The position numbers and the translations under genes are program-made. A DNA stretch of 64,000 bases from Bartonella bovis 91-4 (GTDB lineage: Bacteria > Pseudomonadota > Alphaproteobacteria > Rhizobiales > Rhizobiaceae), in assembly GCF_000384965.1 (NCBI RefSeq), contig NZ_CM001844.1, positions 1,094,042 to 1,158,041 of the forward strand, given 5' to 3'. The notes beneath the pieces were generated by a model that was not told the origin of the DNA, ran no database searches, and was given only the letters and a program-made list of their open reading frames with translations. This document shows positions 45,092 through 47,670 of this stretch, in pieces (the stretch's first letter is position 1; every line of letters starts with the position of its first letter).

Positions 45092-46006
45092 TTATGTAAA
45101 AGGAATAGTCATTGTACCAGGAAGAAACTTGGCCTCATTTTCAGGTTCTATATGAATAGTAATGCGTGCATTTTCAAATTCTACTTTAAGCGCTTCCTCA
45201 ATTTTATTACAAATCTGATGCGCTTCTCCCACCTGCATCATAGTTGGTACAACTAAATGAAACTCTATAAAAATAACCCTACCAGCAACACGCGTCCGTA
45301 AATCATGTATTTCAATAGCACCACACGCATTTGCTAAAATAAGATCACTAATCTGCATGGTTTCATTTAATTCAACTCCAACATCCATTAACCCTTGAAC
45401 AGAATTATGAATCACTTTCCAACCTTGCACAAAAATATGAATAGCAACAATGATTGCCAAAATCGGATCTAAAACAGCCCATCCACTTACGAAAGCAGTA
45501 ACGAGCCCTATTAAAATACCAAAGGAGGTAAAAACATCCATCATTACATGTGCTCCATCAGCCTTAAGAGCCGGTGAATGATGAATTTTCCCTTGTCGAA
45601 TAAGAAGCAAACCCCATAAATAATTTATGATACAGACTGAAAGATTAATACCAATCCATATTCCAGGTTGCTGCGGTAATTCAACGGTTGAAAAAGAGAA
45701 CAACGCTTTTCTTAAAATCATAATTGCCGCAACAATAATCAATATACCTTCAAGAATAGCAGAAAAATATTCTGCCTTATGATGCCCAAAAGGATGATTT
45801 TGATCAGCTGGCTTTAAACTTATTTTAACAGCCCACCATGCCGCTAATGCAGCAATTATATTTACAATTGATTCCAAAGCATCAGAATACAGTGCAACCG
45901 AACCGGTAATCTGATAAGCCCAATATTTCAAAGTAAAAACGATACAAGCCACTAAAATAGACCATAGTGTTAATTTTTGTATCTTTATTTTTGTACTCAT
46001 AACCAC
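45092..46006 (-). CDS. Cation diffusion facilitator metal exporter
   Basis: Inner-membrane divalent metal/proton antiporter of 304 residues, FieF-like: six helices (about 12-210) and a cytoplasmic ferredoxin-like C-terminal domain (about 213-290). The helix-5 site HVMMD matches the His-x3-Asp of YiiP. The helix-2 site reads DALESIVN (42-49), so the usual second Asp is replaced. Metal preference may thus differ from zinc/iron. HPFGHHKAEY (71-80) lies in the loop after helix 2. An operator-like palindrome sits in its promoter region. Which metal it moves is unknown. Confidence 0.92.
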   Translation of the reverse strand: MVMSTKIKIQKLTLWSILVACIVFTLKYWAYQITGSVALYSDALESIVNIIAALAAWWAVKISLKPADQNHPFGHHKAEYFSAILEGILIIVAAIMILRKALFSFSTVELPQQPGIWIGINLSVCIINYLWGLLLIRQGKIHHSPALKADGAHVMMDVFTSFGILIGLVTAFVSGWAVLDPILAIIVAIHIFVQGWKVIHNSVQGLMDVGVELNETMQISDLILANACGAIEIHDLRTRVAGRVIFIEFHLVVPTMMQVGEAHQICNKIEEALKVEFENARITIHIEPENEAKFLPGTMTIPFT

Positions 46007-46582: not shown

Positions 46583-46617
46583 AAAAAAAAGAATCTGGGC
46601 ATTGGGGACCCAGATTC
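46583..46617 (-). terminator. Strong terminator of the small RNA
   Basis: GAATCTGGG (46591-46599) pairs perfectly with CCCAGATTC (46609-46617). On the minus strand eight Ts follow (A run 46583-46590), a model rho-independent terminator. On the plus strand only four Ts follow. Confidence 0.9.
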
Positions 46618-46710
46618 TTTTCCCCTAAAAAGGGACTACAGTCTTAGAAAATAGCGGGGACCTAAGATCCTGTACCCGAATAAAACACTCTCGTGTGCTG
46701 CATTCGGTAT
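46583..46710 (-). ncRNA. Probable small regulatory RNA (unassigned)
   Basis: A minus-strand transcript of about 128 nt bounded by a strong promoter and a strong terminator. From its 5' end it folds into three units. (1) A hairpin with CCGAAT/ATTCGG (46676-46681 with 46702-46707) and an inner ACAC-GAGA-GTGT, that is a GNRA tetraloop on this strand. (2) A long stem with TACAG/CTGTA (46637-46641 with 46670-46674) and TCTTAG/CTAAGA (46642-46647 with 46662-46667), whose 14-base loop reads GUCCCCGCUAUUUU. (3) The terminator hairpin, whose loop again shows UCCCC after G. The repeated C-rich loops are like those of alphaproteobacterial sRNAs that bind ribosome sites. The plan does not fit 6S RNA, tmRNA or SRP RNA. 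Family unknown. Confidence 0.7.
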
Positions 46711-46716
46711 TCATGT

Positions 46717-46743
46717 TTTATACCTAAGGTTGTACAATGTCAA
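46717..46743 (-). promoter_or_regulatory. Promoter of the small RNA
   Basis: On the minus strand a perfect TTGACA (46743-46738) is followed after 15 bases by TATAAA (46722-46717); shifting two bases gives TAAAAC at the standard 17. Predicted start about 46710, just before the first hairpin. Confidence 0.7.
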
Positions 46744-46854: not shown

Positions 46855-47670
46855 ATGACTCTGAATATCACCACAATCCACGAAACTGATGACCCACGCT
46901 TGGAAGCTTATCGTAATATTCGTGAAAAAGATCTCGTTGGACGACAACATCAATTTATTGCCGAAGGTAAAGTAGTATTGTCAGCATTGCTACATTCAAA
47001 AGATTTTTCTGCTTTGTCATTACTTATTGTCGCAGCACGTCTTCTTGGAATTATGCCCATTTTAAAAGCAACAAAGCCAACCTGCCCCATTTATTGCGTT
47101 CCACAAAAAGTCATGGATGATATTGCTGGTTTTCATGTTCACCGTGGTATGCTCGGTATTGGTAAACGTAAAACTTTACCATCATTAAAAAAGTTCTTAC
47201 AAAATATTCCAGAAAAAGCTTTGATTCCAGTTTTATGTGGCATTTCTAATCATGATAATATGGGAGCCATTTTTCGCAATGCGGCCGCTTTTGCTAGTAA
47301 TGGCATTATTGTTGATAAAACTTCATGCGATCCACTATATCGAAAAGCAATCAGAGTTTCCGTTGGTGCTGCGCTAAAAATACCTTATACACAAGGTGCT
47401 AACATTGATAGCATTATTGAAGCTTTAAATGATGCGGATTTTCACCTTTATGCCCTTTCTCCTTCTGCTCCGCGCTATCTCAAAGAAGCAAAATCAACAA
47501 AACGCACTGCAATTATTTTGGGAGCGGAAGGTGATGGTTTACCAACTCATATTTTGCAAAAATCAGAAACCTTACGCATTCCCATGGCTTATGGTTTCGA
47601 TAGCCTCAATGTTGCAACAGCATCGGGCATTGCATTAGCACATTTTGCTGATTTTGATAAACTCAACTAA
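46855..47670 (+). CDS. SpoU/TrmH-family RNA 2'-O-methyltransferase
   Basis: SPOUT methyltransferase of 271 residues: an N-terminal substrate-binding domain (about 20-105, IREKDLVGRQHQFIAEGKVV) and a C-terminal knot domain with NHDNMGAIFRNAAAF (130-144), IILGAEGDGLP and IPMAYGFDSLNVATASGIALAHF. It adds a methyl to a ribose in rRNA or tRNA; the exact site is not clear. The start at 46855 gives a normal N-terminus. Its stop codon lies inside the hairpin that follows. Confidence 0.92.
   Translation: MTLNITTIHETDDPRLEAYRNIREKDLVGRQHQFIAEGKVVLSALLHSKDFSALSLLIVAARLLGIMPILKATKPTCPIYCVPQKVMDDIAGFHVHRGMLGIGKRKTLPSLKKFLQNIPEKALIPVLCGISNHDNMGAIFRNAAAFASNGIIVDKTSCDPLYRKAIRVSVGAALKIPYTQGANIDSIIEALNDADFHLYALSPSAPRYLKEAKSTKRTAIILGAEGDGLPTHILQKSETLRIPMAYGFDSLNVATASGIALAHFADFDKLN

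Follow-up and report, generated by a model that had tools for sequence, protein, structure and literature searches.

A conserved small-RNA gene of Bartonella bovis with a nearly invariant C-rich loop, probably orthologous to BbsR9

The window, that is the whole 64,000-nucleotide stretch of Bartonella bovis 91-4 DNA that was analysed, carries on its minus strand a real and well-conserved small-RNA gene with its own promoter and its own terminator (Table 1). Its product is read here, at a probability of roughly 85%, as a trans-acting small RNA and as this species' orthologue of BbsR9 of Bartonella bacilliformis. This reading links an element that all the examined Bartonella genomes carry to the small RNA with the most target work that we found in the genus. 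Moreover, evolution protects mainly one part of the RNA, the loop of its second hairpin. The genus-wide extent and the definition of this conserved loop are new here, and so are the two genomic homes of the gene, one on the side of a cation efflux (CDF) gene and one on the side of trpE. Also new is the finding that four other genera of the family have relatives of the RNA, most of them directly upstream of trpE.

The coordinates and the minus strand given in the preliminary description were right, and TTGACA (46743-46738) and TATAAA (46722-46717) were present as described. The 5' end of the RNA was placed from the position of the -10 element. In folding, the minus strand of 46584-46714 reached -49.5 kcal/mol (z -5.54), which was equalled by 0 of 200 shuffles; the values for the plus strand were -40.8 kcal/mol, z -3.14 and 2 of 200. 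The terminator hairpin at 46584-46618 gave -15.8 kcal/mol with a z of -5.89. A simple promoter scan did not report this promoter, as its rule needs a spacer of 16-18 nt and the spacer here is 15 nt, and the simple scan also omitted the terminator hairpin, reporting another nearby stem. The direction of the RNA follows from the promoter (TTGAC in 61/61 genomes), the T tract and the conserved loops. It had been derived earlier from a GNRA loop forming on this strand, and the direction was correct, but the argument was not, since a C-GNRA-G apex occurs in 1 of 61 genomes. Furthermore, the GAGA tetraloop described for hairpin 1 was not found, because the minimum free energy structure leaves CGAGAG as a 6-nt loop with no closed GNRA.

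Table 1. Positions of the small-RNA gene, its parts and its neighbours in the window
Feature	Position	Strand	Evidence
-35 element, TTGACA	46738..46743	minus	sequence; TTGAC present in 61/61 Bartonella genomes
-10 element, TATAAA	46717..46722	minus	sequence; spacer 15 nt
AACCTTAGGTA, ACC-N3-GGT palindrome between -35 and -10, candidate operator	46721..46731	minus	sequence
Predicted small RNA, ~130 nt	46583..46712	minus	fold z -5.54; matches in 61/61; covariation
Hairpin 1, sequence-variable	46676..46707	minus	fold; mean pairwise identity 0.58; 3 basal pairs with compensatory changes
Hairpin 2, bearing the main C-rich loop	46637..46674	minus	fold, covariation
Conserved loop motif GGUCCCCGCUAUUU, putative seed	46649..46662	minus	mean identity 0.97
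Hairpin 3 (CCCU/AGGG), short	46623..46634	minus	fold, covariation; mean identity 0.64
Rho-independent terminator hairpin and T tract, loop UCCCCAAUG at 46600-46608	46583..46622	minus	fold, covariation
SpoU/TrmH-type RNA methyltransferase, divergent neighbour	46855..47670	plus	Pfam PF00588; in 45/61 stretches
Cation efflux (CDF) transporter, downstream	45092..46006	minus	Pfam PF01545; in 47/61 stretches

The small RNA folds as four hairpins, the last of which is the Rho-independent terminator. The two C-rich loops of the window RNA, UCCCCGCUAUUU in hairpin 2 and UCCCCAAUG in the terminator, were as the preliminary description had them. The hairpin at 46623-46634, which lies between hairpin 2 and the terminator, was absent from that description. 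The hairpin-2 loop was nearly invariant in the genus, with the form GGUCCCC(C)GCUAUUU: GGUCCCCGCUAUUU was exact in 46 of 61 genomes, had one more C in 13, and carried a one-base insertion or was one base shorter in one genome each. The terminator loop (mean identity 0.94) was UCCCCAAU in 46/61, UUCCCAAU in 13 and different in 2. A repeated GUCCCC in the two loops had been proposed as the seed. This was not supported, since near-invariance was seen in the hairpin-2 loop but not in the terminator loop, and GUCCCC alone does not account for the best predicted pairings, which involve all or part of CCCCGCUAUUUCC.

The DNA of the locus, used as a BLAST query, matched 61 of 61 sampled Bartonella genomes. 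In distant Bartonella the match spanned hairpin 2 to the terminator only, and two genomes had a second, short and marginal match. All 61 Bartonella were aligned, with the duplicate locus L002 left out, and five named Bartonella records were linked to sampled genomes through their sequence. Covariation was measured in 27 sequences (24 of the 61 Bartonella and three copies from two other genera), in which 95.7% of 807 cells were standard pairs and 20 of 30 pairs had changed on both sides, against 8.0 after shuffling. In 24 more diverse sequences (13 Bartonella and 11 from other genera), standard pairs made up 94.2% of 709 cells, and two-sided changes were seen in 24 of 30 pairs (14.8 after shuffling). 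In both sets, whose alignments were fitted to earlier models and are biased towards the structure, 0 of 500 shuffles did as well on any measure, and pairing fell to 28-63% with slid partners. A plain MAFFT alignment of all 61 sequences had two-sided changes in 14 of 25 pairs. Among the 13 terminator pairs, such changes were found in 9 with the 27 sequences and in 11 with the 24 sequences. These results bore out the earlier view of a free-standing small-RNA gene whose stems covary in related genomes. The work also yields covariance models and alignments for a family without an Rfam entry.

At gathering scores, cmscan with Rfam found only a tRNA in the whole window, and a low-threshold scan of the locus found nothing above any family cut-off. 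These two scans, which gave no match to 6S, tmRNA, SRP or RNase P RNA, agreed with the earlier exclusion of these classes. The RNA had also been called unassigned; it has no Rfam family, but it is very probably the orthologue of the published BbsR9. BbsR9 (BB092) is a B. bacilliformis small RNA (Wachter et al. 2020, PMC7717549), which, in the accessible part of that paper, is intergenic, sigma-70 promoted, Rho-terminated and one of five small RNAs widespread in Bartonella. It is expressed and binds the ftsH, nuoF and gcvT mRNAs in vitro (EMSA); trmD, hflK and RS02100 were predicted targets without binding, and rplX was also predicted. The same source gives BbsR9 one 'large' stem-loop, several GC-rich seeds and a folding energy of -46.9, and this part of it does not name BbsR9 among the small RNAs found in further alphaproteobacteria. 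BbsR9 and the window RNA are alike in being Bartonella-wide (61/61 here) and in having their own promoter and terminator. Against the one large stem-loop published for BbsR9, four hairpins are predicted for the window RNA. The two differ in that BbsR9 is described there as conserved in Bartonella, whereas the window RNA also has relatives in four other genera; the divergence of these distant relatives probably put them beyond the reach of the discontinuous megaBLAST search in PMC7717549. In the literature searched, which was mostly open-access, no other paper on the small RNA of the window was found.

Genome G050, which we take to be B. bacilliformis KC583, was used for target prediction with its orthologue of the RNA, L031. 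The folding energy of L031 was -46.9 at 2 of 8 tried 5' ends (135 and 137 nt) and -43.4 to -48.1 at the others, and with a shortened 3' end it rose to as much as -42.6. Pairing of L031 was predicted with positions -100 to +100 of gcvT, nuoF, ftsH and 104 background genes, which were called mechanically (at least 100 aa) from 140 kb of G050. An unrestricted duplex calculation gave whole-molecule hybrids, in which 2, 30 and 5 of the 104 genes scored at least as well as gcvT, nuoF and ftsH, respectively, and 20-nt windows with accessibility were used instead. With these, gcvT and nuoF outscored 104 of 104 background genes, and ftsH outscored all but 3 (all but 2 on a coarser grid). These top predictions are exactly the three EMSA-positive BbsR9 targets in the accessible part of PMC7717549, and the second-best background gene was rplX (Pfam ribosomal L24), which is on the prediction list there. 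On the coarser grid, 0, 0 and 2 genes stood above gcvT, nuoF and ftsH, with a joint rank product of 2.6e-6; the best of 24 genomic slices had 8.5e-4. Base composition contributes to the pairing signal, because the single shuffled RNA that was scored reached 7.4e-5 and likewise put gcvT and nuoF first.

The predicted sites in G050 comprised 14 continuous pairs over -15 to -2 of nuoF and 9 nt at -56 to -48 of gcvT, both with the hairpin-2 loop, and 19 nt at -25 to -7 of ftsH with the junction of hairpins 1 and 2. The RNA of G009 was identical to that of B. bacilliformis Ver097. In Ver097 the nuoF site was unchanged, the gcvT site had one base changed, and the long ftsH pairing was weakened by changes in the RNA. 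In the genome of the window, ftsH ranked above all 50 window genes, nuoF below 4 and gcvT, whose start is possibly wrong, below 21. The gcvT starts were set at a later ATG for the window genome, G013 and G055, and nuoF of G055 was not found in the cross-genome pairing comparison. The ftsH of the window's genome pairs at GGCGGGGAC (L146/L111, G000 1457768-1457776), a leader site located elsewhere than that of G050. The predicted pairings in G050 and other genomes agreed with the earlier suggestion that the C-rich loop is complementary to G-rich leaders and to a Shine-Dalgarno site.

GGTGGGG was present at nuoF in 22 of 29 readable loci (35 nuoF loci examined), and its conservation is no proof of targeting because it is also the nuoF Shine-Dalgarno site. 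The pattern RGYGGGGAC showed no excess in the window's genome, with 22 matches against 25 for the reversed control. Many of its matches sit in large repetitive ORFs, which are presumably autotransporter-like. A 12-nt perfect complement of the loop, AATAGCGGGGAC (L147, G000 1491973-1491981), precedes an apparently decayed small lipoprotein gene.

In the mechanism proposed, hairpin 2 would display its nearly invariant unpaired loop, CCCCGCUAUUU(C/U)C, and this loop would pair with several mRNAs at G-rich stretches of their leaders. In the case of nuoF, the loop would mask the Shine-Dalgarno site beside the start codon and should block ribosome binding. The sign of regulation is most likely translational repression of the classical antisense kind, which is suggested by the near-invariance of the unpaired loop and by the way it covers the whole nuoF Shine-Dalgarno site. 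By analogy, the sign may alternatively be activation, as for GsrN on katG (PMC5869019, accessible part).

The surroundings of the gene fall into two kinds. At least one of the two neighbours seen in the window flanked the small RNA in 48 of 61 Bartonella genomes. The SpoU/TrmH-type neighbour was undetected in 3 of these 48 and had 41%, 41% and 29% identity in three others (loci L012, L028, L034, L030, L050 and L016), with the small RNA intact. In the other 13 Bartonella, a deep clade with named records that include B. apis, B. choladocola, B. apihabitans and B. tamiae, two of which were matched through their sequence, an Rsm22-type gene lay upstream and trpE downstream on the same strand (13/13 vs 0/48 of the others).

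Covariance models were searched over 247 family genomes (first model), 297 order genomes (second) and 394 family genomes (third, built with G248 and G304 among its sequences). Above 40 genomes the filters were stricter and weak matches are lost, so absence elsewhere is provisional. The first model matched G132 and G065 and gave some weak matches. With a G132 copy as the query, BLAST over 297 family genomes recovered the tandem sister of that copy and one copy in G065. G132 and G065, from two other genera, each carry two tandem copies; the pairs are L074 1268-1596 and L075 1504-1892. The matches listed for the second model were in Bartonella itself (G000, G015), with one false positive; G132, G065 and the g17 and g51 genomes did not appear among them and may not have been drawn for that search. 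The third model matched 20 genomes of 7 genera, including two that were rejected (G294, G662). Eight of the 20 are Bartonella, and the others are G132, G065, four of genus g17 (G248, G304, G676, G706) and four of genus g51 (G110, G201, G265, G686). The match in G676 is weak alone (E 0.0077), and its inclusion relies on the neighbour gene. G248 and G304, which are without the exact CCCCGCTATTT loop, had second-model E values of 3e-7 and 7e-7, the hairpin CAGGCAAGG-CACCCCGCUU-CCUUGUCUG and trpE downstream, and they were taken as relatives on these grounds; this makes the wider reading slightly likelier. The relatives in g17 and g51 (L076, L254-L259, L261) have the loop CCCCGCUU(AU) or similar instead of CCCCGCUAUUU, and their second loop is without UCCCC. 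The core CCCCGC was kept in 22 of 24 rows, the exceptions being the downstream copies of G132 and G065, and this core of the hairpin-2 loop is, to judge from the alignment, older than the genus.

The relatives had neighbours of the same two kinds by Pfam: G132 has Rsm22 and trpE, G065 has the cation efflux gene as in the window, and trpE lies downstream of the RNA in all eight g17 and g51 relatives. These shared neighbours across genera support a common descent of the small RNA, and the trpE home is probably the older of the two. In G132, g17 and g51, an element like RcsR1, which is presumably a trp attenuator, lies between the small RNA and trpE with a score below the gathering score; in L074 this sub-threshold match (E 8e-4) follows the tandem pair and stands just before trpE. 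The trpE-side relatives belong to larger-genome genera, in which the small RNA is perhaps easier to study.

Several other candidates were rejected. The exact pattern of the Bartonella-type loop occurred in 73 named-genome records, of which 46 were Bartonella, and none of the 27 others was convincing. The best of them, L233, had E 0.0015 and 0.0003 in two calculations, and by eye its loop letters seem to lie at the end of a coding frame. The matches in G182 (L078, L081), G096 (L079), G606 (L092), G294 (L260) and G662 (L262) covered a terminator-like stem only, with the loop missing, and there was no trpE, Rsm22, CDF or TrmH homologue in their stretches. The BLAST matches L084-L090 were coding-looking or without the hairpin by eye; the most similar, L087, had E 0.14.

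Three other explanations of the locus were weighed against the orthology with BbsR9. The RNA might be a conserved Bartonella small RNA that is separate from BbsR9 and has its own other targets. BbsR9 is only one of the five widespread Bartonella small RNAs and is not named in the accessible part of PMC7717549 as occurring outside the genus, whereas the window RNA has relatives in four other genera; moreover, the target pairing is only partly conserved, and a shuffled RNA also ranked gcvT and nuoF first. However, the three proven BbsR9 targets came out jointly at the top, a result matched by 0 of 24 genomic slices, the folding energy of BbsR9 can be matched, and the distant relatives probably escaped the published search by their divergence. 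A separate RNA is considered unlikely.

The RNA could also act in cis on the downstream gene, as a leader or attenuator whose conditional terminator controls read-through. In either home it shares its strand with the next gene, the CDF gene in 47/61 genomes and G065, and trpE in 13/13 deep-clade genomes, G132 and 8/8 of g17 and g51. Against this, the structure and the loop are kept though the downstream gene differs between the homes, the CDF gene of the window is ~577 nt away, and in G132, g17 and g51 a separate RcsR1-like element lies between the RNA and trpE. What is conserved, furthermore, is the loops and not an alternative anti-terminator stem, and this explanation is very improbable. 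A sponge function, in which the two C-rich loops would titrate a protein or another RNA, would be in line with two similar loops per RNA and with the tandem copies in two genera, but the second loop is less conserved (UCCCCAAU in 46/61) and lacks UCCCC in g17 and g51, and the mRNA complementarity is extensive and agrees with the proven targets. The chance of a sponge is put slightly lower still.

The promoter of the small RNA holds an element that is open to testing. The palindrome AACCTTAGGTA was the sole match in the window, where chance would give 0.75 matches and 39 of 100 shuffles contained one or more. Of the 61 genomes, 18 had an exact ACC-N3-GGT between -35 and -10, 23 had one upstream of -35, and 4 had both. 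In the deep Bartonella clade the upstream copy is nearly perfect, reading AACCTWAGGTT in most rows. The arrangement of these palindromes suggests a candidate site for a regulator of the small-RNA promoter. A wider scenario is offered tentatively and is rather doubtful as a whole. An ancient riboregulator family, undescribed outside Bartonella in the literature searched, would have arisen upstream of a trpE attenuator in larger-genome relatives, been tandem-duplicated in two lineages and moved beside a cation exporter in most Bartonella; there its frozen CCCCGC loop would set the levels of complex I (nuoF) and a protease (ftsH) between vector and host, and a regulator acting through the ACC-N3-GGT promoter palindromes would perhaps switch it.

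The window RNA, as the probable orthologue of BbsR9, can be compared with other known small RNAs. The AbcR RNAs (alpha-r15) have their own sequence motifs and are usually tandem small RNAs beside a LysR-type gene; the low-threshold Rfam scan of the locus gave no match to AbcR. Alpha-r45 (RF02347) is a Rhizobiales small RNA that is also expressed in B. bacilliformis. It gave no match at the locus up to E 10, and its model matches elsewhere in this genome, at G000:C1 1197823-1197969 (L069; E 4e-38). A match like Bacillus ncr1015 had E 0.048, below the gathering score, and was rejected. SmelA075 and SmelA099 are akin to the cuckoo or alpha-r14 RNAs. According to the accessible part of PMC3927594, RFM SmelA075/SmelA099 have several hairpins with anti-Shine-Dalgarno-like loops, CCUCCUCCC, and several copies per genome. 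The window RNA has C-rich hairpin loops like these, but without CCUCCUCCC in either of them, and has one match in its genome; a cuckoo or alpha-r14-like RNA was rejected for its loops. EcpR1 (SmelC291) was likewise rejected, as its loop UCCGCCGCAUCU is absent from the alignment. The Brt1-9 RNAs of B. henselae are described in the accessible part of PMC5387305 as genus-specific, 194-203 nt long, present in nine copies with a helix-turn-helix gene after each, and absent from B. bacilliformis; the window RNA is ~130 nt long, and the next same-strand gene encodes a cation efflux protein, not a helix-turn-helix protein. GsrN of Caulobacter, as far as the accessible part of PMC5869019 goes, has an exposed C-rich loop that pairs with G-rich mRNA, activates katG and has BLAST homologs limited to the Caulobacteraceae. 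The lineages of GsrN and the window RNA differ, and in both of them the C-rich loop is the best conserved part.
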